From a methanotrophic endosymbiont of Bathymodiolus puteoserpentis (Logatchev) (GTDB lineage: Bacteria > Pseudomonadota > Gammaproteobacteria > Methylococcales > Methylomonadaceae), in the NCBI RefSeq assembly GCF_900128525.1, contig NZ_FQTQ01000206.1, forward strand, positions 1 through 64,000: a DNA stretch of 64,000 bases, read 5' to 3'. The notes beneath the pieces were generated by a model that was given only the letters and a program-made list of their open reading frames with translations, ran no database searches and was not told the DNA's origin. Shown here piece by piece: positions 2,723-33,962 of the stretch; position 1 is the first letter of the stretch, and every line of letters begins with the position of its first letter. The translations under genes and the position numbers were made by a program.

Positions 2723-4289
2723 AGGGCAAAGCCTTAAAGTGCGCAGACTTATTTTAATAAGTGTAGCGTATATTTTATTTGCTCAAGCACCAGCATTTGC
2801 AATTGATTTTATATTTACACCAAACTTAACAATACAAGAAACATACTCTGATAATATTCGTTTGGCTAGTAAAGGTCAGGAGCAAGGTGCATTTGTGACC
2901 GAGGTCAGTCCAGGTATTTCGATAAGAGGTATCAATGGAGGTCGTTTAAATGCTGATTTTAATTACCGTATGCAAAACTTATTTAATGCTGGAGGTGATG
3001 GACAAACACAAATTAACCACCAACTACAATTAAATACTGGCTATCAAGCTATACGTAATCGACTTAATGTTACTGCTAGAGGCAGTTATAATCAGCAAAA
3101 TATTAGTAATTTACGTGGTGGTGATAATATCAATAATCTCCGTGCTCGGACAAATGTATGGACAGCAGGTACTTCTGTTAATTGGACACCACGTTTTGGG
3201 CAATTTGCTAATGCTAATGTCAATATAGATTTTGATTATGTTGGCAATGATAGTGCTGACCAGCTAGCAAATTCCATGAATTTGAGAGAGTCTATTAATT
3301 TATTCAGTGGTCGTGATTTTAAGCATATCACTTGGAATGTAAATTTTGATAACTCAACTCAGTTTCGAGAAAATGAAGATGATGTCAGTTTTCAGAATAC
3401 TAATGCTACAGTAAGAACCTGGGTTGATAGGCGTTTTAATTTCTTTGGTACAGTAGGTTATGCTAATAATAGCTTTCAAGGGCTAGATACTAATAATAAT
3501 GGTGTTTTTTATACGGTAGGGGCGCAGTGGAAACCGAACTGGTATTTTGATGTTGAAGCAGGTTATGGTAATAACTGGCATGTGTCATCTAATCTTAGTT
3601 TAAGTCAGCGTACCCATTTAAGTGTGGGTTATTTTGATCGTTCTATTGGTTTAAATACGGGAGGAGCATGGAATGCTTCTTTATATCATCAAACAAAAAG
3701 ATCAACATGGAACTTTACCTATTTACAAGACACAACAACTGTTCAGCAAATCTTATTGCAGGATACTCCCTTTGTCGTTGTTGATGCGGCTGGCAATCCA
3801 CTACAGGGTACTGATGGACAGCCTATTATTTTTAATGCTAGTTTGCCTAGCTTAAATAATGATGTGCTTGTTAGGAGAACTGCGAATGCTTCAGTTTCTT
3901 ACACAACGGGGAAAAGTAGTTTTCAGTTAGGTGGTTTTTATGAAAAAAGAGACTACCAAAATTCAACGGCTGATCAGCAAACTGTTTATGGCGCTAATGC
4001 TTCTTGGAATTGGCAGTTTTCGCGTAGAACAAGTCTTTTGCTTTCTCCATCATGGCAACGCATTACGGGAGATGCCGTAGAAGTACCTACAAATGTAAAT
4101 GTTAATCAAGATCGTTATCAATTTATAGCAAGGATGACCCGTACAATATCGCTTAGCTTCCTTAGCTTCGGAAGAAGTAGACTCTTAAATGCAAGTATAG
4201 AGTATCGTTTTGTACAGCAAGATGCTGATTTAGCAGCGAATACCTATACAGAAAATAGAGTAGCAGCCAGCTTGTTTTGGAATTTCTAA
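2697..4289 (+). CDS. XrtA/PEP-CTERM-system outer membrane beta-barrel protein
   Basis: About 530 residues with an N-terminal signal peptide (RRLILISVAYILFAQAPAFA) and a body of alternating aromatic and polar residues ending in a C-terminal aromatic (FWNF), as expected for an outer-membrane barrel. The N-terminal part contains LTIQETYSDN, typical of the family found beside the chain-length factor and kinase in exosortase EPS loci. Its likely role is EPS secretion through the outer membrane. ATG codons at 2697, 2703 and 2712 are all possible starts, all overlapping the kinase gene. The 3' end is followed directly by the deacetylase, with no partner ATPase gene between them. Confidence 0.85.
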   Translation: MVMDNMATKGQSLKVRRLILISVAYILFAQAPAFAIDFIFTPNLTIQETYSDNIRLASKGQEQGAFVTEVSPGISIRGINGGRLNADFNYRMQNLFNAGGDGQTQINHQLQLNTGYQAIRNRLNVTARGSYNQQNISNLRGGDNINNLRARTNVWTAGTSVNWTPRFGQFANANVNIDFDYVGNDSADQLANSMNLRESINLFSGRDFKHITWNVNFDNSTQFRENEDDVSFQNTNATVRTWVDRRFNFFGTVGYANNSFQGLDTNNNGVFYTVGAQWKPNWYFDVEAGYGNNWHVSSNLSLSQRTHLSVGYFDRSIGLNTGGAWNASLYHQTKRSTWNFTYLQDTTTVQQILLQDTPFVVVDAAGNPLQGTDGQPIIFNASLPSLNNDVLVRRTANASVSYTTGKSSFQLGGFYEKRDYQNSTADQQTVYGANASWNWQFSRRTSLLLSPSWQRITGDAVEVPTNVNVNQDRYQFIARMTRTISLSFLSFGRSRLLNASIEYRFVQQDADLAANTYTENRVAASLFWNF

Positions 4290-4309
4290 AAAGACTTAAA
4301 AATACAGTA

Positions 4310-5137
4310 ATGAAAAATGCCATGACAGTTGATGTAGAAGATTATTTTCAAGTCTCTGCATTTGAATCGTATATCAAAAAATCACAGTGGGATACTTTAG
4401 AACATCGAGTACAAAATAATACCGAACGTATTCTTGATGTTTTCACTCAGCATAATGTAAAAGCGACTTTTTTTACCTTGGGCTGGGTGGCGGAGCGTTA
4501 TCCTGAATTGGTTAAAAGAATTGTTAACGAGGGCCATGAACTTGCTAGTCATGGCTATGAGCATATTCGTGTCACAGAGCAAACGCCGGTGCAATTTAGA
4601 GCTGATGTACGTAAAACGAAGAAATTATTAGAAGATATAGGAGGTATAGAAATACAAGGTTATCGGGCCGCTAGTTATTCTATTGGCCGCGACAATCTCT
4701 GGGCATTAGATATTTTGGCAGAAGAGGGGCATAAATACAGCTCTAGTATTTACCCAGTAAAACATGATTTATATGGCATGCCAGAAGCGCCACGGTTTGC
4801 TTATCATCCTATAGAAGGGCGTGATTTTAAGGAAATACCAATCAGCACATTAAAAATAGGTAATAAGAACTATCCTTGTGGCGGTGGTGGTTTTTTTAGG
4901 TTATATCCGTACTTTATCTCTCGCTGGGCATTTAATCGAATCAATAATACTGAGCAACAAGCTGGAATTTTTTATTTTCATCCTTGGGAAATTGATGCTG
5001 AGCAACCTAGACAAGAAAATTTAGCATTTAAAGCGAAATTTCGACACTATTTGAATTTACAGAAAATGGAAAGTCGTATTAAGTCTTTATTAGCAGATTT
5101 TGAATGGGATACGATGCAAGCCGTTTTTTTAAAATAA
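4310..5137 (+). CDS. XrtA-system polysaccharide deacetylase (NodB/CE4 family)
   Basis: A CE4 deacetylase of about 275 residues, expected to remove N-acetyl groups from the exopolysaccharide. The N-terminal TVDVEDYFQV carries the catalytic and metal-binding aspartate region. SHGYEHIRV gives the metal-binding histidines and GYRAASYSIG is the following conserved motif. The ATG at 4310 is preferred because the family starts with MTVDVEDYFQ-type sequence. An upstream TTG at 4277 would add 11 atypical residues and overlap the previous gene. Confidence 0.9.
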   Translation: MKNAMTVDVEDYFQVSAFESYIKKSQWDTLEHRVQNNTERILDVFTQHNVKATFFTLGWVAERYPELVKRIVNEGHELASHGYEHIRVTEQTPVQFRADVRKTKKLLEDIGGIEIQGYRAASYSIGRDNLWALDILAEEGHKYSSSIYPVKHDLYGMPEAPRFAYHPIEGRDFKEIPISTLKIGNKNYPCGGGGFFRLYPYFISRWAFNRINNTEQQAGIFYFHPWEIDAEQPRQENLAFKAKFRHYLNLQKMESRIKSLLADFEWDTMQAVFLK

Positions 5138-5230
5138 GTGAAGTGTAAATTCGGCCTTTAGTCGTAAATTATGCGTAAAAACTGTGGCTAAAGACACGCT
5201 CCTAAAAATATCAATTAATTTTTTACTACC

Positions 5231-6253
5231 ATGATAAAAATTTTAAGTCATCCGGATAAAAATCTCTGGCAACAATACGTAGAGAAAACACCAGCAGCTA
5301 CCTTTTTTCATCAAGTTGAATGGCAAGAAGTCATTGAACGCTCTTTTGGGCATAAAACTTATTATCTTTATGCAGAGCAGCAAGGCCAAATAACCGGTAT
5401 CTTGCCCTTAGTACATATTAAAAGCCTGTTATTTGGTAATGCCTTAGTATCTAATGCTTTTTGTGTTTATGGCGGCGTAGTTGCTGATAATGTTGATGCG
5501 GCTTTGGCTCTTGATCAAGAAGCTTGTCGATTAGGTAAAGAGTTAGCTGTTGATCATATTGAGTTTAGAAATAGAGAGCGCATAAATCCGGATAGACCCT
5601 ATAAAGAAGGTATGTATGTTACCTTTAGAAAAGAATTAGAATCTGATGTAGATAAGAATTTAGCGGCTATTCCTAGAAAACAGCGTGCAGTTGTTAGAAA
5701 AGGCATAAAAGCAGGTTTAGTCAGTGTGATTGATAATGATACTGAGCGCTTGTTTGAGGCTTATTCAGAAAGTGTACGAAATTTAGGTACGCCAGTCTTT
5801 CCTAAGAAGTACTTTAAAATACTAAAAGAGGTATTTAAAGAGCAATGCGAAGTGATCTCTATCGAGCATAAAGGAAAACTTATTGCTAGCGTTATGAATT
5901 TCTACTTTAGAGATGAAGTATTGCCATATTACGGAGGCGGTAAAGCTGAAGCCCGAGCCTTATATGCGAATGACTTTATGTATTGGGAAGTGATGCGGCG
6001 TGCTGTTGATAAAGGTGTGAAAATCTTTGATTATGGACGGAGTAAAATTGGTACAGGGTCTTATCGGTTTAAAAAGCATTGGGGCTTTAAAGAGGCACCG
6101 TTATTTTATGAGTTTGAGTTAGTAAAATCAGGTTCTATGCCAGATATTAATCCTTTAAACCCGAAGTACAAGTTTTTTATTGCTGCGTGGAAGAGACTAC
6201 CGTTAAGTGTTAGTCAAGTTATTGGTCCTCTATTAGCAAAAGATTTAGGCTAA
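5231..6253 (+). CDS. FemAB family XrtA/PEP-CTERM-associated protein
   Basis: 340 residues with a GNAT-like FemAB fold. Recognisable stretches are the N-terminal FFHQVEWQEVIERSFGH and the C-terminal FDYGRSKIGTGSYRFKKHWGF. This family is a regular member of exosortase-A EPS loci. It probably transfers an acyl or aminoacyl group to the polysaccharide or its carrier, but the substrate is unknown. A 93-bp spacer with a weak palindrome separates it from the deacetylase. Its 3' end meets the convergent gene at 6250 tail to tail with a 4-base overlap. Confidence 0.85.
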   Translation: MIKILSHPDKNLWQQYVEKTPAATFFHQVEWQEVIERSFGHKTYYLYAEQQGQITGILPLVHIKSLLFGNALVSNAFCVYGGVVADNVDAALALDQEACRLGKELAVDHIEFRNRERINPDRPYKEGMYVTFRKELESDVDKNLAAIPRKQRAVVRKGIKAGLVSVIDNDTERLFEAYSESVRNLGTPVFPKKYFKILKEVFKEQCEVISIEHKGKLIASVMNFYFRDEVLPYYGGGKAEARALYANDFMYWEVMRRAVDKGVKIFDYGRSKIGTGSYRFKKHWGFKEAPLFYEFELVKSGSMPDINPLNPKYKFFIAAWKRLPLSVSQVIGPLLAKDLG

Positions 6254-6981
6254 GGGAAAAGACGCAATAGAAATGGTATCAGCCATTGTAAAAAACTGAC
6301 TAAAATTAATAAAGCTGCTAGATAATACAGCGTTGTTATATGAAGCAAGCTATGTAAAAAATTAGTTAAATGATCTGTGCCTTGTATTGCTGTATTTGCT
6401 TGTTCTTCTAGCAGGGTATTATAGTTAATCGTACTTGCTTGCCTGCTATGTATTGGTATTTCTTGTGTCTTTTGAGTGCTAGATCCCATCTCAATATTTT
6501 GTAGGGCTGGAGTGATGGATATTTCAGACTGTATTAGCTGGTCCAGCTCCAAGGAAAATAAAAGATCATAAGCAAAGTCAGTGGCTAATGCATCAGCATC
6601 GGTCCATAGTTGCTTAGCTTGGGAGAGGGAGTTTAAAGTCTTAGATAGCAGCTCGTTATCCTGATAATCATTGATAAGCTTTTTACCCTGAGCTTTGAGA
6701 TCGTAGAGTTTTGGCTTGTGTTGTGCTTGTTGTGCATTAGATGGAAGATGAAAGCGCGCAGGAGTATCAATTTTATAATCGTTTGAGCGGTAGTCTCCTT
6801 TTGGCTTAGGTCTTTCTGGGTCGGTATTGAGAAGAGCTTTTATTTCTATTGATGGTTGTACTGGAAAATCGGCATGCGGATCAATTTGCACTAGTGCCGC
6901 ACTAACCAAGCCAGATAGAGCAAGCAATAAAGCAAAATAGCATAGCTTAAAGAGGGGTAAGTGTGGAAAGTTTTTTTTCAT
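6250..6981 (-). CDS. Hypothetical membrane-anchored protein
   Basis: I do not recognise this 243-residue protein. It has an N-terminal hydrophobic segment (about residues 12-30, ending VSAAL) that could be a signal peptide or anchor. A polar, glutamine- and leucine-rich middle follows, then a strong C-terminal membrane helix near residues 218-241. It is the only minus-strand gene within the first 25 kb and interrupts an otherwise co-directional EPS operon. It occupies roughly the place where a locus of this type might carry another EPS gene, but two hydrophobic segments are far too few for an exosortase. An ATG at 6979-6981 with little spacer to the divergent gene at 7038 implies a shared 56-bp promoter region. 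Confidence 0.65.
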   Translation of the reverse strand: MKKNFPHLPLFKLCYFALLLALSGLVSAALVQIDPHADFPVQPSIEIKALLNTDPERPKPKGDYRSNDYKIDTPARFHLPSNAQQAQHKPKLYDLKAQGKKLINDYQDNELLSKTLNSLSQAKQLWTDADALATDFAYDLLFSLELDQLIQSEISITPALQNIEMGSSTQKTQEIPIHSRQASTINYNTLLEEQANTAIQGTDHLTNFLHSLLHITTLYYLAALLILVSFLQWLIPFLLRLFP

Positions 6982-7037
6982 AATTTTGATTGTATAGCTT
7001 TATATGTATTTTGTAAAAAATTTGAAAAGAGTAGCGT

Positions 7038-8249
7038 ATGAAAAATTTATTATTCCTTGTGCACCGAATTCCTTATCCGCCCAATAAAGGAGATAAAATT
7101 CGTTCCTATAACTTTCTTAAAGGTTTAGCAAAAAATTACAATATTTATTTGGCTGCATTTATTGATGATGTAGAGGATTGGCAATATGTTGATAAAGTCG
7201 AAAATTTGACTGCGAGCTCTTTTTTTGTCAATCTTAATCCGTCTTTAGCTAAAATACAAAGCTTGTCAGGGTTCTTTACAAAAAAAGCACTTTCTATACC
7301 TTATTATCATAATAATAAAGTACAGCAATGGGTTAATAAAACGATCCGAGAAAATAAAATAGAAAAAATATTTATATATTCTTCGGTCATGGCTCAATAT
7401 ATTGAGGTCCATCAAACTGACTGCGTAATTGATTTTGTCGATGTTGATTCCGATAAGTGGTTACAATATTCGCAAAAAGCAAAATGGCCGATGAGTTGGA
7501 TTTATAAAAGGGAAGCAAAGTTACTTTTAGAATTTGATGCTAAAGTTGCCAAGTTAGCAAAGATGAGTATTTTTGTTTCTCAAGAAGAATCGCAATTATT
7601 TAGCAATTTAGTTGATATTAATCCTAAGAAAATTAGTTTCGTTAATAATGGGGTGGATACGGAATATTTTAGTGCCAATAAATCGTACAATTTACCTTAT
7701 AATAATCCTGAAAATATAATAGTCTTTACAGGAGCAATGGATTATTGGGCTAATGTTGATGCTGTTACTTGGTTTGTGCGTGAAGTATTGCCAAGAATAA
7801 AACACCAATGTGCCAGTGCTCAATTTTATATAGTAGGCTCAAACCCAACTAAAGACGTGCACGACTTAACTAGTGTGGAAGGTGTATTTGTTACTGGAAG
7901 AGTTGAAGATATTCGCCCTTATTTGAAGTTTTCATCTGTTGTTGTTGCGCCTTTACTTATTGCGCGAGGTATCCAAAATAAAGTATTAGAAGCGATGGCA
8001 ATGGGTAAAAAAATAATCGCTACTCGGCAAGCCATTGAGGGCATTAAAATAACCTCTCAAGAGGTTTATATAAAAGATAATGCTGAAGATTTTGCAAGGC
8101 AAGTACTTTTATTGTTAGACAATACTCAGGCAAGTTTTTATGTAGAAGAAAACCGTCAATTTGTGCAAAAGAATTTTAGTTGGGGTGCGAGTCTCAAACA
8201 GCTGACACATATAATAGAAACGGAACAGTTGATTAAACCGAAGGTTTGA
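7038..8249 (+). CDS. TIGR03087-like PEP-CTERM/XrtA glycosyltransferase
   Basis: A cytoplasmic GT4-type glycosyltransferase of 403 residues. The N-terminus [22 protein letters not shown] is diagnostic of the exosortase-associated family. The C-terminal donor-binding half contains [14 protein letters not shown] and the retaining-GT motif region [22 protein letters not shown]. It should add a sugar to the lipid-linked EPS repeat unit. The ATG follows a GAAAAGAG ribosome binding site, and wecB begins four bases after its stop, so this gene probably opens a new operon after the minus-strand gene. Confidence 0.88.
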
Positions 8250-12922: not shown

Positions 12923-13873
12923 ATGGGCAAACAGGATGTTATTTCTAAAAGTATTTTAAAGCGTATTTTTGTTGATGTTGCGACCTACTTATTTGGTTTA
13001 AAGTTGCATAATGTGCAGTTAATCGATACAGAACAGCAAAGAATAGAGGATCGACGTGCGGATTTAGTGGCTAGAGTGCAAGATGAAGCAGGAAATAAAT
13101 TCATTTTGCATATTGAAATACAAAATCAAAATCAGCGCATAATGCCAATAAGAATGCTGAGGTATTTGACGGATATTAAATTAAATCACCCTAATGAAAA
13201 GGTATTTCAGTATTTGCTTTACATTGGTCAGGAAAAAATGAATATGGCCAGTGGTATTCATAGTCAGCAACTCGATTATCAATACGCAGTCATTGATATG
13301 CACATGATTGATTACCAGGATTTTATGGCACAAAGTACTCCAGATGCAATTGTCATGGCAATCTTATGCGATTTTAAAGGTGTACCAGAAAAACAAATTG
13401 TTCATGGGTTATTAAGTAAGTTAGGAATGTGCATGAAATAACTTAGGCAACTTATAAAGTTGTTGCGTCAGGAATGGCAGTATAATTCCATTGCCATAAT
13501 TCTTAAATTGAACTTGCCTAAATTAATTTGTGCTCATTCCTTACTGCAGTTAACTCAAAATAGTTCGACGGAACAAAGAGAATATATTTCGATGTTAGAA
13601 ATTCTAGCGAATAATCGAAATTTAAACATAGATATACAGCAGGAGTTTGAGATGTTGAACCTAGAAATAGAACAACTGCCTAGCTATAGAATAGGTATGA
13701 AAAGAGGCGAGAGCCAAGGTGAGCTGCGCGGTGAAAAACGCGGTGAAAAACGTGGTGAGAAAATAAAAGCCATGCTTATTGCTAAAAAGTTGCTAGGCAC
13801 GGGTATGTCAATAGAGAAAATCTCTGAAATTACTGAGTTGTCATTGGATGAACTTGAAACACTAATCTACTAA
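12923..13873 (+). pseudogene. Rpn/YhgA-type PD-(D/E)XK nuclease gene split by a MITE
   Basis: Two adjacent open frames are the halves of one gene. The first part matches the intact paralogue at 20455 up to HGLLSKL. The second resumes at LQLTQNSSTEQREYISMLEIL. Removing bases 13424-13540 plus one TTA target duplicate leaves 831 bases in frame (276 codons plus stop), against 277 residues in the intact copy. The nuclease core shows ADL...HIEIQNQNQ (the D...ExQ element). The C-terminus carries three in-frame R-G-E-K repeats encoded by a 12-bp tandem repeat. Intact relatives are recombination-promoting nucleases or transposase-like proteins. This copy is almost certainly inactive. Confidence 0.9.
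13424..13540 (-). mobile_element. MITE copy 1 (117 bp)
   Basis: A non-coding insertion in the Rpn-type gene, bounded by GGAATGTGCATGAAATAACT on the left and by sequence whose reverse complement is GGAATGAGCACAAATTAATT on the right. TTAGGCAA continues both ends, giving imperfect inverted ends of about 30 bases. Flanking TTA at 13421-13423 and 13541-13543 is a 3-bp target duplication. It is shorter than copy 2 (151 bp) because about 34 internal bases are missing. It is drawn in reverse orientation relative to copies 2 and 3. No transposase is encoded. Confidence 0.9.
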
Positions 13874-15139: not shown

Positions 15140-17029
15140 ATGTGTGGCATTGTAGGTATCTTTGATCTAAACGGAAAGCGTGAAATTAACCGTGAATTGC
15201 TACATGTAATGAACGAAAGGCAATTCCATCGTGGCCCTGATGAAGGTGGCTTGCATATAGAGCCAGGTTTAGGATTAGGTCATAGGCGTTTATCGATTAT
15301 TGATTTATCCAGTGGTCAACAGCCGATGCACAGTGCTGATGGTAGCGTGGTTTTAACGTATAACGGTGAAGTGTATAACTTTCCTGAGTTGCGTAAAGAG
15401 CTAGAAGCCTTAGGGTATACCTTTAAAACTCATTGTGATACAGAAGTTATTGTTTATGCTTGGCAGGCCTGGGGGGAAGATTGTGTGTTACGTTTACGCG
15501 GCATGTTTGCTTTTGCTATCTGGGATAGGGATAAGCAAACTTTATTTTTAGCGCGTGACCGTTTAGGTATTAAGCCCTTATTTTATTCACAGTTAAAAAA
15601 TGGCCAGTTTATTTTCTCTTCGGAACTAAAAGCTTTAAAAGCACATCCTGATCTACCTAAAGAAATGGATCCAACTGCCATAGAGGATTATTTTGGCTTC
15701 GGGTATATTCCTGATCCAAAAACGATTTATAAAGAAGTTTATAAATTAGAGCCAGGCTATTGTTTAGCGCTTAAACGAGGTAATTCTCAATACCAGCCAC
15801 GCCAGTACTGGGATGTTCATTTTGAAACAAAACATCAAGGCACGGAACAGGAATTAAGTGCAGAACTTATTGCACGTTTACGTGAAGCCGTCGATATTCG
15901 TACCGTTGCGGATGTACCTTTAGGTGCTTTTTTGTCGGGTGGAGTAGATTCTAGTGCAATTGTTGCTATGATGGCGGGTTTATCAGAAGATCCAGTCAAT
16001 ACTTGCTCTATTTCTTTTGGCGACCCTAAGTTTAATGAGTCACAATTTGCTGCGAAAGTCGCCGAACAGTATCATACTAAGCACCGCGTAGAGCAGGTTG
16101 ATCCTGATGATTTTAGTTTAGTCGGCAGGTTAGCGGGTATTTATGATGAGCCTTATGCAGATAGTTCGGCATTGCCAACATATAGAGTCTGTGAGTTAGC
16201 AAAAAAACAGGCAACAGTCGTGTTATCGGGTGATGGTGGTGATGAAAATCTCGCTGGCTATCGGCGTTATCGATGGCATACTTATGAGGATCGTATGCGC
16301 TCTATTATGCCGGATGCAATACGTAAACCCTTATTTGGCTTAATGGGGAATGTATATCCAAAAGCGGATTGGGCGCCGAAAATATTTCGCGCAAAATCAA
16401 CTTTTGAATCCATCGCCCGTGACTCTATTGAAGGTTATTTTCATAGTGTTTCAGTGAACTCCAATGCAATTCGTGCATCACTGTTTAGTGAACAATTAAA
16501 AAATGACCTTCAAGACTATCAAGCGGTTGATGTCTTTAGACGACATATGCAAAATGCACCTAGCGAGGATGCTCAGTCTCTAGTACAATATTTAGATATT
16601 AAAACTTATTTACCAGGTGATATTTTAACTAAGGTAGATCGGGCTAGTATGGCGCATTCGCTTGAAGTGCGTGTGCCATTACTTGATCATAAGTTAGTTG
16701 AATGGATAGCTAAACTGCCTCCTGATTTAAAATTACATAAAAAGGAAGGCAAATATCTGTTTAAGAAAGGACTAGAGCCTTATTTGCCTAATGATATTTT
16801 ATATCGTCCAAAAATGGGCTTTGGCGTGCCGTTAGCCAGTTGGTTCAGAGGGGCACTAAAAGATCAAGTGCAAACCTCTTTGCTAGGTGAAACAATGCAA
16901 GGTTGTGGGTTTTTTGATCAGAAATTTTTGACCAAGGTGGTTGATCAGCATCAGAGTGGGTTAAGAGATTACAGCACTACTATATGGTCGTTGTTGATGT
17001 TTGAGCATTTTTTGCATGGCAGTGAATAA
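15140..17029 (+). CDS. XrtA/PEP-CTERM-system amidotransferase (asparagine synthase family)
   Basis: 629 residues with an N-terminal class-II glutaminase domain. Cys2 follows the start Met (MCGIVGIFD) and RGPDE and YNGEVYNF are intact. The C-terminal ATP-binding domain has SGGVDSS at about 265-271 and GDGGDENLAGYRRY. It probably amidates a uronic-acid carboxyl or another acceptor during EPS synthesis, as proposed for this exosortase-associated family, rather than making asparagine. It stands directly upstream of the PqqD/HprK-like cassette, which matters because related enzymes form the lactam in lasso peptides. A 224-bp spacer follows. Confidence 0.9.
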   Translation: MCGIVGIFDLNGKREINRELLHVMNERQFHRGPDEGGLHIEPGLGLGHRRLSIIDLSSGQQPMHSADGSVVLTYNGEVYNFPELRKELEALGYTFKTHCDTEVIVYAWQAWGEDCVLRLRGMFAFAIWDRDKQTLFLARDRLGIKPLFYSQLKNGQFIFSSELKALKAHPDLPKEMDPTAIEDYFGFGYIPDPKTIYKEVYKLEPGYCLALKRGNSQYQPRQYWDVHFETKHQGTEQELSAELIARLREAVDIRTVADVPLGAFLSGGVDSSAIVAMMAGLSEDPVNTCSISFGDPKFNESQFAAKVAEQYHTKHRVEQVDPDDFSLVGRLAGIYDEPYADSSALPTYRVCELAKKQATVVLSGDGGDENLAGYRRYRWHTYEDRMRSIMPDAIRKPLFGLMGNVYPKADWAPKIFRAKSTFESIARDSIEGYFHSVSVNSNAIRASLFSEQLKNDLQDYQAVDVFRRHMQNAPSEDAQSLVQYLDIKTYLPGDILTKVDRASMAHSLEVRVPLLDHKLVEWIAKLPPDLKLHKKEGKYLFKKGLEPYLPNDILYRPKMGFGVPLASWFRGALKDQVQTSLLGETMQGCGFFDQKFLTKVVDQHQSGLRDYSTTIWSLLMFEHFLHGSE

Positions 17030-17253
17030 GGCTATTTTTAAGTTTAAGTAACTTCTTATTATTAACAGGTACAGACGAGAGCTTATAGGGCTTTATTCAT
17101 GAATAGTAAGATATTACTTGATAATCGGATAAATAGTTGATTTATTAATACTTTAATATAATAATGAGGTATTGTTTTTCTTGTTAGGAAAAATAAAAAC
17201 TTAAGTAGAGTGGCATTGAATTTATTCTATTTTTATATAGGAATTAAGGGGGA

Positions 17254-18154
17254 ATGGTGAATAATATAAATCAGCTTCAAGAGAACACAACTGATAAGAA
17301 AAGTGATTCTGTACTTACTTCTAATGCGCGTCGTAGGTTGATTAAAGGAACTGCGATAGCGCTACCCGTTGTTATGACCTTAAGAAGTGGTGCGGCTATG
17401 GCGGCATCTAGTACGGAAAGTTGTATTGCACGTGACCAAAGAACAGCGGATAATTTAAATCCTAATAAATTTACTAAGGAATGAGCACAAATTAATTTAG
17501 GCAAGTTCAATTTAAGAATTATAATGATGCAACTCATAAACTTTATTTACACCTGAGGCAATGGAATTATACTGCCATTCCTGACGCAACAACTTTATAA
17601 GTTGCCTAAGTTATTTCATGCACATTCCTAATGCAGATACGGATCCATTTTTAAGAACTCCAATAACCATTACTAGGCTAATCAAGATAAAAGAGGTGAG
17701 GGATAGTAGCGGTAATAATCCAAAATGGGTTTATGATAAAAAGAACACGGCCAATGCCGATGGTACTTTTTTTAAAAGAAGGACTGTTTATGTACATGGT
17801 CATGGACTAACAGCCCTTCCTGCTGACTGGTTGAATACAACTGAACCACAGTTACAATTTAGTGATCAGTCTACTACAATCGACGTTTATAATGTATATA
17901 CAGATCCATCACCAGCAATAACGGCTGGAAATCATTTTAAACGATTAGCAAATAATTTTGTTCAGGATACGAGTTTTGGAAGCAATGGAATCAAGGAAAA
18001 ATTTGGCTTGGTTGTAACTGACCCGTTTGGAGGGATACAAACTGATGCTCTTAATGGCCCTAGAGTTGGGCAATTTGTAGATCATTCCGACTTACAAGCT
18101 AACAATCATCTTACAGGTTCTTGCTGGACTTCTTTAAATCCAAATGTTCCTTGA
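17254..18154 (+). pseudogene. Secreted twin-Arg-leader protein, candidate cassette substrate, split by a MITE
   Basis: A gene for a 248-residue protein interrupted by a 151-bp element. Before the insertion the frame encodes a leader with RRRLIKG followed by a hydrophobic stretch (TAIALPVVMTLRSGAAMA), a Tat-like or Sec signal, then SSTESCIARDQRT. After the insertion it continues NADTDPFLRTPITITR and ends SCWTSLNPNVP. Deleting 17478-17628 plus one TAA joins the frames exactly. I recognise no enzymatic domain. The stop (TGA, 18152-18154) overlaps the likely TTG start of the PqqD-like gene, so it heads a coupled operon. An ATG inside the element (17618) could re-initiate the 178-residue C-terminal part without the signal. 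The start has a strong AAGGGGG binding site. Confidence 0.8.
17478..17628 (+). mobile_element. MITE copy 2 (151 bp, longest copy)
   Basis: This copy starts GGAATGAGCACAAATTAATT and ends with the reverse complement of GGAATGTGCATGAAATAACT. It is flanked by TAA at 17475-17477 and 17629-17631, the same 3-bp target as copy 1 read from the other strand. It carries the internal segment AATGATGCAACTCATAAACT that copy 1 lacks. It supplies the premature TGA of the upstream half-gene and an ATG for the downstream half. Confidence 0.9.
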
Positions 18155-18441
18155 GTACTAAAATAATAACATGGCGAGTTATTCAGGGATCTGATTTATT
18201 GTTCGTAAATTGGGGTTCTGAAGTCATTGTCTATAATTCCTTATCAGGTGAAACTCATCAAATGGATGTTTTTTCGGCTACTGTATTAGAACAGTTGATG
18301 AGTAATAATTATATAGAGGAAGCATTGCTAAACGATATTTGTCGATTATATTCATTGGACAATAATTCCGAAAATCAACAATTAATAGCCTTAATCATCA
18401 ATAATTTTGATCAGCTAGGGTTAATAGAGCCCTGTTATTAA
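18151..18441 (+). CDS. HPr-rel-A system PqqD-family peptide chaperone
   Basis: About 96 residues from a TTG at 18151, whose TTGA overlaps the stop of the preceding gene. An upstream TTG at 18121 is possible but less likely. The fold signature is that of PqqD-like RiPP recognition elements: a short strand region (WRVIQGSDLLFVNWG), VYNSLSGETHQMDVFSATVLEQL, then a helical region ending FDQLGLIEPCY. PqqD-like proteins bind leader peptides and present them to modifying enzymes. It is followed by the HprK-like gene with a one-base overlap (TAATG). The placement makes the gene at 17254 a candidate client, but this is inference. Confidence 0.8.
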   Translation: MSTKIITWRVIQGSDLLFVNWGSEVIVYNSLSGETHQMDVFSATVLEQLMSNNYIEEALLNDICRLYSLDNNSENQQLIALIINNFDQLGLIEPCY

Positions 18442-19358
18442 TGAAATTAAAGCAATTAGGGTTAGGTAATCTAGTCAAACAGGCTGCAAGTAAAGAAGGG
18501 GTTTGTCTGGATATTGGTGCTTTTTGCGTTAGAGTAAAAAGTGATGAGATAATATTCTTAGAAACACTTGCTTTTTTATATCAAGATTTCCCTATTTTAC
18601 CTAGTGATACCTTTGCAGACTTTCATATTGTTATTACGCGTCCGAAGGGTGTACGGCACTATCTGAAGCCTCAAGTTATTTTTGTGACTGATGGACAGCA
18701 ACCGTTTGAGCCTTTTCCCCTTAGTCACGCATTTCCTTTATTTGAGTGGGGCTTAAACTGGTGTATAGCCCGTAGGTCTCATCAATACCTTATGCTTCAT
18801 GCAGCTGTTGTTGAGAAAAATGGTAAGGCGCTGATTTTACCTGCGCTTCCTGGTTCGGGAAAAAGCACCTTGAGTGCCGCATTAGCTATGAATGGGTGGC
18901 GGTTTTTATCAGATGAATTTACTATGATTCGGCCACAGGATGGTAAGATATTACCGATACCGCGGCCTACGCCTCTAAAGAATGCTTCAATTCAGGTAAT
19001 AAAAGGTACGTTTCTTAATGCCGAAATGGGTCCCTTGTTCCCAAAGACACGCAAAGGAACAGTTGCTCATCTTAGGCCACCCAAACAAAGTGTTGAGCAG
19101 TTAAAGGAAGCAGTATTGCCTGAGTTGTTGATTTTTCCAAAATTTCAAGCGAATACAGAAATACAACTTAATCTACTAAATAAGCCATACGTTGTTTTTA
19201 AATTGGCTAGTAATGCTTTTAATTATGAATTGATGGGGCGAACAGGCTTTGAACTGGTGAAGAATATGACTTCATCTTGTCGCTGTTACAACCTGACTTA
19301 TAGTCGTTTTGATCAAGTATTACCCTTGCTTGATGATTTGCTAATGCAAAACGTATGA
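18441..19358 (+). CDS. HprK-related kinase A
   Basis: A 305-residue P-loop protein related to HPr kinase. Walker A is ALPGSGKS at 135-142, followed by SDEF at 157-160 where HPr kinases have their catalytic acidic pair. No HPr protein is encoded nearby, and this subfamily occurs with a PqqD-like gene rather than with PTS genes. A related kinase phosphorylates the C-terminal residue of the lasso peptide paeninodin. Here the substrate is unknown and could be a peptide, protein or glycan intermediate. The gene overlaps the following nucleotidyltransferase gene by four bases (ATGA). Confidence 0.85.
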   Translation: MKLKQLGLGNLVKQAASKEGVCLDIGAFCVRVKSDEIIFLETLAFLYQDFPILPSDTFADFHIVITRPKGVRHYLKPQVIFVTDGQQPFEPFPLSHAFPLFEWGLNWCIARRSHQYLMLHAAVVEKNGKALILPALPGSGKSTLSAALAMNGWRFLSDEFTMIRPQDGKILPIPRPTPLKNASIQVIKGTFLNAEMGPLFPKTRKGTVAHLRPPKQSVEQLKEAVLPELLIFPKFQANTEIQLNLLNKPYVVFKLASNAFNYELMGRTGFELVKNMTSSCRCYNLTYSRFDQVLPLLDDLLMQNV

Positions 19359-20455
19359 CAATACCTGCCAATCACGTAAAAAAAATACTTATTAATTGTT
19401 TATGTTTTCCTGAAACAGTTAAAGAGTTAACTGTTTCAGAATGGGAGTTATTAATACGCTGTGCTAGACATTGTAAATTACTTGCTTACCTGAGATGGAA
19501 GCTTGATTCATGCGGTTTGATTGCATCAGTGCCCGCCCAGGTATTAACGCATTTTACAGCGGCACAACGCATTGTAGATTACCGGAATAGATTGGCAATG
19601 TGGGAATTAAACCGGATAAGGCGTGCTTTATATGCGAAGGATGTTGAAGTACTCGTATTAAAGGGAGGTGCTTATCAATTATTACAAATCCCTTTTGCTC
19701 AAAGCAGGCTGCTAGCCGATATTGATATTCTGGTTAAAAAAAGTGACATTCATACAGTAGAAACATGTTTGCAGCAACAAGGCTGGCAAACGGCGAAATT
19801 GGATGAATATGATCAGCAATATTACCGAACCTGGATGCATGAGGTTCCGCCTTTAAGGCATCAGGAACGTTTTATTGAGGTCGATTTGCATCATACAATA
19901 TTACCACTATCCAGTCGATTGCAGCCTTCCCCTGAATTGTTAATAGAAGATTCAATAGTTGTTGAAAATATAGCTTATAAAGTGTTTTCACCGGTTGATA
20001 TGATTTTGCATAGTAGTGTACATTTATTTTATGATGCTGAGTTAAATGGAGCTGATTTTAGGGATTTGGTTGATTTAAAAGAACTGATTGCTTATTTTCA
20101 ACCGCAGCAAGAGTTTTTCTTTGAAATACTGTTGGATCGAGCTAAGCAACTGACTTTGCAGCGGCCTTTGTACTACACACTCTACTTTATACATAATTTA
20201 TTAGATGCCCCCATTCCTGAAGAATATATTGAAAAAAATATTGGCAAACCCAGTTGGTTGACTAGAAAATTAATGTGCTACCTTGTGCCATTAGCTTTAA
20301 TACCCGAGCATCCAGATTTCCCTAGAAAAAAAGTGGCACTAGCCAGATGGCTGCTGTATGTTCGTTCACATTTTCTACGCATGCCTTTTTATTTGTTAAT
20401 ACCTCATTTATTACGTAAAAGCAGGATGCGAATGGCGGGGAAAGAGATGCATTAA
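19355..20455 (+). CDS. Nucleotidyltransferase family protein (NTP_transf_5-like)
   Basis: 366 residues. The nucleotidyltransferase core is visible as LKGGAYQLL (about 102-110) followed by LLADIDILVKK, whose D122 and D124 form the metal-binding pair. The C-terminal half is helical and basic. Members of this family sit in lasso-peptide clusters beside an HPr-kinase-like gene and also in exosortase EPS loci. It probably transfers a nucleotide to a small molecule, peptide or protein. It overlaps the kinase gene upstream (ATGA) and the nuclease-like gene downstream (TAATG), so all are translationally coupled. Confidence 0.8.
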   Translation: MTIPANHVKKILINCLCFPETVKELTVSEWELLIRCARHCKLLAYLRWKLDSCGLIASVPAQVLTHFTAAQRIVDYRNRLAMWELNRIRRALYAKDVEVLVLKGGAYQLLQIPFAQSRLLADIDILVKKSDIHTVETCLQQQGWQTAKLDEYDQQYYRTWMHEVPPLRHQERFIEVDLHHTILPLSSRLQPSPELLIEDSIVVENIAYKVFSPVDMILHSSVHLFYDAELNGADFRDLVDLKELIAYFQPQQEFFFEILLDRAKQLTLQRPLYYTLYFIHNLLDAPIPEEYIEKNIGKPSWLTRKLMCYLVPLALIPEHPDFPRKKVALARWLLYVRSHFLRMPFYLLIPHLLRKSRMRMAGKEMH

Positions 20456-23995: not shown

Positions 23996-25798
23996 ATGAC
24001 ATTACTAGCGGGTTGGGTAGAAACAATAATAAGAGCTAAAGATGCAGAACGATTATTAAAAAGACATATTAGTAATGCTCCAGGCTTTACAACAAAAGGT
24101 GTAAAAACTGATAGTTCTGTCTTTTATGCTTTGGCAGCAAACCAATACAAGATACATAATGTACAAGGTACGTTATTAGTTAACGCGGGTAATACCGAAT
24201 TAACTACTTCGGCGGAAGAAATCATTGGCAATTATCAGCAAAAAGGTGATACCTTTTTGGAATTCAATCCCATTGAGCAAGCACTGGTCATTATCGATTC
24301 TGATCAAAAGAAACTGATCTTAGCAACAGACCCAATTGGCCTTACGCAGTTGTATTATGCCCAGACTGATAAGGGCTTAGTTTTTGGTGCAACCGCTGAT
24401 AGTGTTATTGCTCACCCTGAAGTGAAATCTGATATTTCAGCGCAATCAGTTTACGATTATGTTTATTTTCATCATTGCCCTAGCCCCTGTACGATTTACC
24501 AACAGGTTAAAAAATTAGAAGGCGGGCAGACTCTTGTTTATCAAAATGGAAAAGTCCAGATAAAACATTACTGGATGCCTAAATTTCAAGAAACTATACC
24601 TAGCTCTACTGTGGAAATGGGTAAAGAGTTACAGCAAAAATTAATAGATTCAGTAGCGCGGTTATCTGTAGGTGAAAATGAAACAGGAGCATTTTTAAGT
24701 GGTGGACTAGACAGTTCTAGTGTCGCAGGTGCTTTATCCAAAGTTTACCCTAATAAAGCAAAAACATTTTCTATGGGGTTTCCGGTAGATGGCTATGATG
24801 AAATTGAATTTGCCAATATAGCGGCAGATCATTTTAAAACTCGGCAAACCGAATATTATTTAACCCCAGAAGATACTGTCAAGGCTATTCCTGATATTGC
24901 CGCGTACTATGATGAGCCCTTTGGCAATTCATCCGCATTAGCGGCCTATTATTGTGCCAAAGTAGCAAAAGATAATGGCATATCAGTTATTTTAGGTGGC
25001 GATGGTGGTGATGAAATATTTGCCGGTAATGAGCGCTATGCACAGCAACTAATTTTTGACTATTATCAACAAGTACCCAGTATCATCAGCAAGAGTATGG
25101 AAGGTGTACTAGACCACCTTCCTGCGTTATTAGCCAAACAAAAGTTATTTTTTAAAGCAAAGCGTTATATAGAGCAAGCCAAAATACCTTTGCCAGATCG
25201 TTTGCAGGATTATAATTTTTTACATCGTCATGCAGGCAGTGAAATATTCCAAGCTGATTTTTTACAACAGATTAATACAGAACAGCCATTAGATTTGCTC
25301 AGGGAAGCTTATCATCGACCAGAGCAAGCGAGTACTTTAAATCGCATGTTATACATGGACTGGAAAACGACTTTACATGATAATGACCTAGTTAAAGTGA
25401 ATAAAATGTGTGAAATGGCCGGTGTAACGGTTAGATACCCTTTATTAAGTCAAGAAATTATAGATTTATCCTGTAAAATTCCATCAAGCGATAAACTACA
25501 AGCTAAACAGCTACGCAAATTTTACAAACAAGCGATGGCCGGTTTTCTACCAGAAAAAATTATTAATAAATCTAAGCATGGATTTGGTTTGCCGTTTGGT
25601 ATTTGGTTAAAAGATTATCAGCCTTTAAAAGAATTGGCTTACGATAGTATTAATAGCTTAAAAAAACGTCCGTATTTTAAAGCAGAATTTCTCGACCATA
25701 CGATTAAAATGCACCAAAGTATTCATGCGGCTTATTATGGTGAATTAATCTGGATATTGATGATGTTAGAGTTGTGGTTTCAAGGAAAGGAAATATAG
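23996..25798 (+). CDS. Asparagine-synthase-like protein lacking the glutaminase cysteine
   Basis: 600 residues. The C-terminal ATP-binding domain is intact: SGGLDSS at about 235-241 and GGDGGDEIFAGNERY. The N-terminal domain still folds like a class-II glutaminase (LATDPIGLTQLYYA), but it begins MTLLAGWVET with no cysteine at position 2. It therefore cannot release ammonia from glutamine in the usual way. Loss of this cysteine is common in asparagine-synthase homologues that form amide or lactam bonds with an amine other than ammonia. It closes the EPS locus. Reaction and substrate are unknown. Confidence 0.8.
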   Translation: MTLLAGWVETIIRAKDAERLLKRHISNAPGFTTKGVKTDSSVFYALAANQYKIHNVQGTLLVNAGNTELTTSAEEIIGNYQQKGDTFLEFNPIEQALVIIDSDQKKLILATDPIGLTQLYYAQTDKGLVFGATADSVIAHPEVKSDISAQSVYDYVYFHHCPSPCTIYQQVKKLEGGQTLVYQNGKVQIKHYWMPKFQETIPSSTVEMGKELQQKLIDSVARLSVGENETGAFLSGGLDSSSVAGALSKVYPNKAKTFSMGFPVDGYDEIEFANIAADHFKTRQTEYYLTPEDTVKAIPDIAAYYDEPFGNSSALAAYYCAKVAKDNGISVILGGDGGDEIFAGNERYAQQLIFDYYQQVPSIISKSMEGVLDHLPALLAKQKLFFKAKRYIEQAKIPLPDRLQDYNFLHRHAGSEIFQADFLQQINTEQPLDLLREAYHRPEQASTLNRMLYMDWKTTLHDNDLVKVNKMCEMAGVTVRYPLLSQEIIDLSCKIPSSDKLQAKQLRKFYKQAMAGFLPEKIINKSKHGFGLPFGIWLKDYQPLKELAYDSINSLKKRPYFKAEFLDHTIKMHQSIHAAYYGELIWILMMLELWFQGKEI

Positions 25799-33885: not shown

Positions 33886-33962
33886 GGAATGAGCACAAAT
33901 TAATTTAGGCAAGTTCAATTTAAGAATTATAATGATGCAACTCATAAACTTTATTTAAACCT
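33886..33962 (+). mobile_element. MITE copy 3 (half element)
   Basis: The first 74 bases match copy 2 from GGAATGAGCACAAATTAATT through the internal AATGATGCAACTCATAAACT. TTA precedes it at 33883-33885. The right half and right end are absent. Sequence switches at about 33960 to the 3' side of a HAF-repeat gene fragment on the minus strand. The element therefore marks a rearrangement junction. Confidence 0.85.

Follow-up and report, generated by a model that had tools for sequence, protein, structure and literature searches.

The closest described relatives of the genes considered here belong to lasso peptide clusters. As set out in the available excerpts of PMC9266682, the kinase PadeK adds a phosphate to the Ser at the C terminus of the paeninodin precursor, and in the pseudomycoidin pathway PsmK phosphorylates and PsmN then hexosylates; the same excerpts allow PsmN to be either a glycosyltransferase or a true nucleotidyltransferase and give the lasso kinase motif as His-Lys-Asp-Asp. 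A leader rule, Thr at the penultimate leader position, is given in an excerpt of PMC10368454. We analysed a 64,000-nucleotide stretch of DNA (the window; contig NZ_FQTQ01000206.1, positions 1 to 64,000) from a methanotrophic endosymbiont of Bathymodiolus puteoserpentis, where positions 15140-20455 had been read as a lasso-peptide-like tailoring set: genes for an asparagine-synthase-like enzyme, a PqqD-like chaperone, an HprK-like kinase and a nucleotidyltransferase (NTase), standing in a row. All four are present on the + strand in the table of open reading frames (ORFs). The cassette to which three of them belong would be akin in action to the lasso kinase/nucleotidyltransferase pair, yet it is no lasso system. 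Its constant set is a protein with a twin-arginine translocation (Tat) leader, a PqqD-like protein, an HprK-related kinase A and an NTP_transf_5 NTase, and we think it reasonably likely that this cassette carries out leader-guided Ser phosphorylation, and perhaps capping, of Tat-exported proteins in the cytoplasm.

The PqqD-like, putatively leader-binding chaperone, with a predicted RiPP (ribosomally synthesized and post-translationally modified peptide) recognition element (RRE), is encoded at 18121-18441 (+) and matches TIGR04353, the HPr-rel-A system PqqD-family, at 40.1 bits (cut-off 35). HprK-related kinase A, at 18441-19358 (+), matches TIGR04352 at 384 bits (cut-off 200), and the NTase, at 19355-20455 (+), matches NTP_transf_5 (PF14907) at 179.9 bits (cut-off 31.2). 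The first two genes overlap by 1 base, the kinase and NTase genes by 4 bases, and the NTase gene and the next gene by 1 base. The row of genes described in the original prediction is therefore real for these three, but the asparagine-synthase-like gene does not directly adjoin them, as a split gene for a Tat-leader protein lies between. Both members of the adjacent TIGR04352/TIGR04353 pair are over cut-off and so belong to what NCBIfam calls the 'HPr-rel-A system', whose family names (the names alone were compared) carry no substrate.

Structure modelling of the PqqD-like protein (48 rows) gave a mean predicted local distance difference test score (pLDDT) of 90.2, and the top Foldseek matches in the PDB were the TbiB1-leader complex 5v1v (E 3.8e-4), 5v1u, 6jx3 and PqqD 5sxy. 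The protein is predicted to have the RRE fold found in lasso B1-leader complexes, as had been proposed. A similar arrangement is found in pyrroloquinoline quinone biosynthesis (PqqD with PqqE), where an RRE chaperone hands a leader to an enzyme; that enzyme is a radical SAM protein, whereas here a kinase and an NTase take its place. Both the P-loop and the His-Lys-Asp-Asp/Glu residues of the HPr kinase family are retained in the cassette kinase: H120, K141, D158 and E159 are intact in the window, and the H, K, D and E stand at 100% in 108 related loci, so that the cassette kinase has D-E where the lasso motif excerpted from PMC9266682 has D-D. The NTase has the residues KG..R..DxD..D, and KG, R, DxD and D are kept in 103 rows; a search for solved relatives by sequence gave two matches for it, both at chance level. 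An anti-phage role was considered and set aside, with zero PADLOC matches for five proteins.

To define the constant part of the cassette, we drew one sample of 398 genomes from the phylum, 61 of which have TIGR04352 over its cut-off. A first set held 30 loci of sampled genomes, that of the window included (L002, a further but weak match in the genome of the window, was excluded). Further loci comprised 68 named loci with flanks of up to 10 kb and 40 wider stretches, which stand for 40 of the 61 kinase genomes and of which 18 overlap with the first 30 loci. These 68 and 40 form the set of 108 loci (L032-L139), with flanks of up to about 10 kb, some shorter, and with no pair of kinases at 90% identity or more. 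An NTase match adjoins the kinase in 100 of the 108 loci, some of the other eight ending close to the kinase. With a strict filter on place and length, 81 of 98 loci yielded a PqqD-like ORF. Substrate-like ORFs with a Tat leader accompany 102 of the 108 cassettes (family B 63, family A 30, family C 9). Away from the cassette, no substrate-like ORF was matched in the collected flanks of these loci. The cassette is real and widespread, and the association is more than chance. Among the six loci with no substrate ORF, L081 and L089 stop at contig ends, and L134 and L139 (genomes G268 and G022) have their leader protein on another contig. A fifth, L085, lies on a contig labelled Phycisphaeraceae and has a PqqD-like ORF and an NTase with no substrate-like ORF found; its cassette may reflect transfer between phyla or a misbinned contig.

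The constancy that had been expected of the asparagine-synthase-like gene was not observed. At 15140-17029 (+) in the window, this gene encodes the XrtA/PEP-CTERM-system amidotransferase (TIGR03108, 1081.8 bits, cut-off 816.9), which belongs to the exopolysaccharide (EPS) locus, outside the cassette. A TIGR03108-type amidotransferase lies near 13 of the 108 cassettes. The predicted association of the PqqD/HprK pair with a twin-Arg-leader gene was borne out, and a constant set of four genes is recovered once the substrate takes the place of the asparagine synthase.

These data bear on a lasso variant in which the asparagine-synthase-like enzyme would close a macrolactam ring that the kinase and NTase then decorate. 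A separate RRE protein, an HprK-like kinase and an NTase are indeed shared with the paeninodin and pseudomycoidin clusters (as in the excerpts of PMC9266682), and for families A and C the resemblance extends to a conserved Ser close to the C terminus. However, the amidotransferase of the window scores far under the cut-off of the lasso cyclase family NF033535 (260.6 against 525 bits), and no lasso cyclase or B2 protease accompanies the cassette. The B2 family PF13471, whose lack here was correctly noted in the original prediction, is unmatched in 14 of the 15 cassette genomes searched, that of the window included; its lone match, in genome G024, belongs to a separate cluster about 550 kb away from the cassette. 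The substrates, moreover, are proteins of roughly 120-300 residues with Tat-like leaders, in contrast to the short precursor peptides of lasso systems. With these family scores, B2 missing and the asparagine synthase missing in most loci, we rejected a lasso cluster, and the lasso variant appears very improbable.

Genome G024 has a lasso-like cluster of its own, at positions 3800-8196 of locus L178 (G024:C1:2783000-2793000), in which the B2 protease has beside it an ORF judged PqqD-like by eye and an HprK-like ORF that scores only 42.2 bits with TIGR04352, against 246.1 bits for the cassette kinase; other ORFs of the cluster, also judged by eye, we take to be sulfotransferase-like. A second amidotransferase-like protein is encoded in the window at 23996-25798, scoring merely 292.8 bits with TIGR03108 (cut-off 816.9) and matching the N-terminal glutaminase domain in part only (GATase_7, 27.2 bits).

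The exported proteins encoded beside the cassette fall into three unrelated cores (A, B and C) with similar leaders. In profile-profile comparisons the leaders aligned with a probability of 97% for A and B (E 3e-11), 88% for B and C and 67% for A and C (with C represented by 6 rows), whereas no pair of cores exceeded 1.6%; the best A-C core alignment consists of the eight columns that close both profiles, the site of a C-terminal motif. Common leaders, variable cores and a predicted RRE are together the features of a RiPP-type system. None of 18 scanned substrates (eight of family A and ten others) passed a Pfam or NCBIfam cut-off, though some show weak sub-threshold matches, and the two substrate parts of the window likewise stayed under all of these cut-offs. 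A structure model of family B (pLDDT 77.4) gave no PDB match, the best having an E value of 3.2. These three families of exported proteins are newly recognised likely substrates.

Family A was aligned in 33 rows: 27 from clustering, five added by hand on sequence appearance (L029, a short 82-aa ORF, and L040, L041, L066 and L071), and one, win2, from the window. All 33 rows, win2 from the split gene included, have the second Ser of the C-terminal motif [ST]CxxS[FL], and every leader-bearing row has the twin Arg together with a leader Pro (win2 lacks a leader). In a family A set of slightly different make-up, [ST]CxxS[FLVIM] occurs within the last 45 residues of 29 of 32 proteins, against a shuffled expectation of 0.14. 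Family C, known from nine loci in one family of sampled genomes, ends in GFTC[FY]ASLQ and so shares [ST]CxxS[FL]. The 49 members of family B, obtained by clustering, have RR in 98% of rows and two Ser residues shortly after the leader (SGxxSG). In an alignment of 40 chosen rows, which omits nine of the 49 members, six of them more divergent or incomplete, RR is present in 40 of 40, and R24, R25, S55 and S59 alone are invariant. The pattern C-x(1,4)-S-x3-S occurs in 43 of the 49, anywhere in the protein and with no shuffled control. Two loci, L046 (5689-7107) and L090 (7640-9570), have two family B leader proteins in tandem with one cassette; those of L046 lie downstream of the kinase and NTase.

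The Cys residues of these motifs suggest another fate for a phosphoserine. The phosphate could be only an intermediate that activates the Ser for crosslinking or elimination, as in a thioether with the neighbouring Cys: 91% of family A rows have a Cys next to the Ser motif (CxxS), and in family B one lies near the SxxxS pair. However, no lyase or cyclase is among the family-named recurring neighbours, which are of XrtA/EPS or regulatory types; of ten representative neighbours scanned, PrsR, PrsK, PrsT, an acyltransferase and EpsB_2 were named, three of the ten stayed unnamed, and other neighbours were unscanned. We consider such chemistry quite unlikely.

We next asked how closely the leader follows the kinase, using a leader profile of 40 positions run over the 398 genomes. 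At E<=1e-5 the profile matched 41 genomes, all 41 with the kinase, and at E<=1e-3 it matched 49, of which 44 have the kinase. Fifteen of the 41 strong-match genomes had supplied a profile row and 26 none, several of the latter coming from row genera. At E<=1e-5, six leader proteins are encoded on contigs other than that of the kinase. All six, found by their leader alone, end in the family A motif [ST]CxxS[FL], and five of them have a TIGR04353 protein over cut-off encoded after them; in G268 the sole TIGR04353 match lies beside the distant substrate and not beside the kinase. These six proteins and the 26 non-row genomes are the less dependent tests of the leader. A seventh leader match away from the kinase contig is weak (G149:C423, E 3e-4).

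Generic Tat signals are present in 10 of 10 kinase-free genomes checked (35 matches), and 30 generic Tat loci from these genomes reached at most 20.8 bits with a leader model and 17.5 bits with the leader profile. Among cassette leaders, 85 of 86 were over 20 bits (median 45.7) with the leader model, which was trained on them. TatC is encoded in 15 of 15 cassette genomes checked, so that a twin-Arg signal and a Tat translocase occur together, consistent with predicted export by this route.

An alternative is that the kinase and NTase act elsewhere, on HPr-like proteins, EPS sugars or regulators, and that the Tat protein is merely a co-regulated surface protein. The nearest solved sequence relatives of the kinase do include the HPr kinases 2qmh and 1jb1, weakly (E 0.014), and EPS and PrsK/PrsR/PrsT genes often lie close to the cassette. 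Neither the leader protein in 102 of 108 loci nor the similar leaders on unrelated cores would be expected from it, nor would the confinement of strong leader matches to kinase genomes and the substrate/PqqD-like pairs encoded off the kinase contig in the same genomes, and we find this alternative unlikely. Since the predicted RRE fold, the kinase residues, the near-constant leader gene and the confined leader matches agree, a pathway that modifies a secreted protein, the broader suggestion of the original prediction, is well supported.

Chaperones that bind Tat leaders are known as a general idea, and Tat leaders are removed by signal peptidase. In the pathway we favour, the PqqD-like protein would bind the twin-Arg leader in the cytoplasm through its RRE and present the exported protein to the kinase, which would phosphorylate one conserved Ser. 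In families A and C the target would be the second Ser of the [ST]C-x-x-S-[FL] motif at the C terminus; in family B it would be a Ser within SGxxSG, just past the leader. Next, the NTP_transf_5 enzyme would add a nucleotidyl or sugar group to the phosphate, or in its place, with chemistry and order of steps modelled by analogy on PadeK and on PsmK with PsmN. The modified protein would leave through Tat, and signal peptidase would cut off the leader, so that a lasso-type B2 protease would be unneeded.

Several observations weigh against this pathway or narrow it. At E<=1e-3, 5 of the 49 leader-matched genomes lack a kinase over cut-off, and 17 of the 61 kinase genomes lack a leader match, 10 of them in the one family of genomes with family C, whose leaders escaped the profile and align just weakly with those of family A (67%). 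One generic Tat protein accounts for the score of 20.8 bits with the leader model. Hypergeometric and Fisher values ignore genome relatedness and, as the sampled genomes are related, the co-occurrence probabilities are indicative only. No substrate was found near the cassette at L085 and L133. Over all 49 rows of family B the two Ser residues are conserved at 98% and 96% and are not invariant, and the C-terminal motif occurs in 0 of 49, so that no single modified-Ser rule covers all substrates; a C-terminal Ser rule for every substrate is thereby ruled out. The motif Ser could also be conserved for folding or disulfide reasons. Finally, the substrate gene of the window is itself interrupted.

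The kinase and PqqD-like family names were known before; the likely substrates, a predictive leader and single conserved Ser residues as candidate sites are added here, and the leader predicts substrates even on contigs away from the kinase. Among the matches listed from the open-access literature (subscription papers were not covered), we found no paper on an HPr-rel-A kinase cassette, and HPr is unmentioned in the excerpts available of two RRE papers (PMC7470986, PMC12710340) and of the 2006 PEP-CTERM paper (PMC1569441). If the proposed pathway is correct, RiPP-style leader-guided modification reaches Tat-exported proteins of about 120-300 residues. This also bears on the matrix formed by EPS producers of the exosortase type, where surface chemistry is still largely open.

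As had been described, the genes lie within an EPS locus in the window. The surroundings are an XrtA-type set that includes a chain length determinant, a tyrosine autokinase, TIGR03016, a deacetylase, a FemAB-like protein and the glycosyltransferases TIGR03088 and TIGR04063; the XrtA-set families found are TIGR03007, 03018, 03016, 03006, 03019, 03088, 03108 and 04063. Across the 398 genomes, XrtA is over cut-off in 34, and the kinase occurs in 24 of these against 37 of the other 364. Loci of the cassette and the XrtA/PEP-CTERM system are thus in part common, but 37 kinase genomes, that of the window among them, lack XrtA over cut-off, and PEP-CTERM models matched 0 of the 18 scanned substrates. 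XrtA/EPS or PrsK/PrsR/PrsT-type markers were found in 50 of the 108 loci, and in 36 of the 71 whose flanks exceed 8 kb on each side, which weakens the idea of a constant link to an EPS locus, even though XrtA and the kinase do co-occur genome by genome: the EPS setting is common, not constant. No exosortase A over cut-off was found in the genome of the window, the best match reaching 157 bits against 208. This sole match lies at 1627-2475 of locus L140 (genome G000, contig C173), and the protein passes the general exosortase family TIGR02602 at 166.2 bits (cut-off 105.55).

Because the cassette often serves an XrtA-type EPS producer, the tagged protein is probably located at the cell surface or in the matrix. 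A bolder extension, which we regard as improbable, is that NTP_transf_5 converts the phosphoserine to a glycosyl-phosphate (or nucleotidyl) anchor and that a phosphodiester on the conserved Ser would thereby join the protein to the XrtA-type exopolysaccharide, with the PqqD-like protein serving at once as RiPP-type leader binder and Tat-leader chaperone. If true, this would be a bacterial protein-polysaccharide linker.

The substrate gene of the window, overlooked in the original prediction, lies between the amidotransferase and PqqD-like genes (17030-18120) and is in two parts. The 5' part (17254-17484, +) encodes a twin-Arg leader at about 17329-17409, RRRLIKGTAIALPVVMTLRSGAAMAAS, followed by the start of the mature region; the leader profile matches this ORF at 57.3 bits (E 5.2e-15), its own leader being one profile row. 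The 3' part is in the ORF 17618-18154 (+), with substrate sequence from about 17630, and ends ...TGSCWTSLNPNVP; it is the family A row win2. Its C-terminal motif SCWTSL is encoded at 18119-18136 (+), the codon of the second Ser, the proposed modification site, being 18131-18133. This split gene is the sole leader-profile match in the genome and, as it is interrupted, the modification pathway may be idle here.

The interruption is a 153-bp repeated element, AGGAATG...CATTCCT, at 17477-17629, which we take to be IS-like (insertion-sequence-like) in nature. One or other of its halves matches at least about 40 further places in the genome, mostly with 97-100% identity (scored: 40 of 110-111 candidates). 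Given the near identity of its halves to other copies and a downstream reading frame that still runs through to the motif, the element was probably inserted recently. Among the matches listed, joined copies lie on contig C62 and, in shorter form, at 13424-13541 of the window. The latter has both element ends on the - strand and appears to split an Rpn-like ORF into parts at 12923-13441 and 13460-13873, and a further left end of the element lies at 33886.

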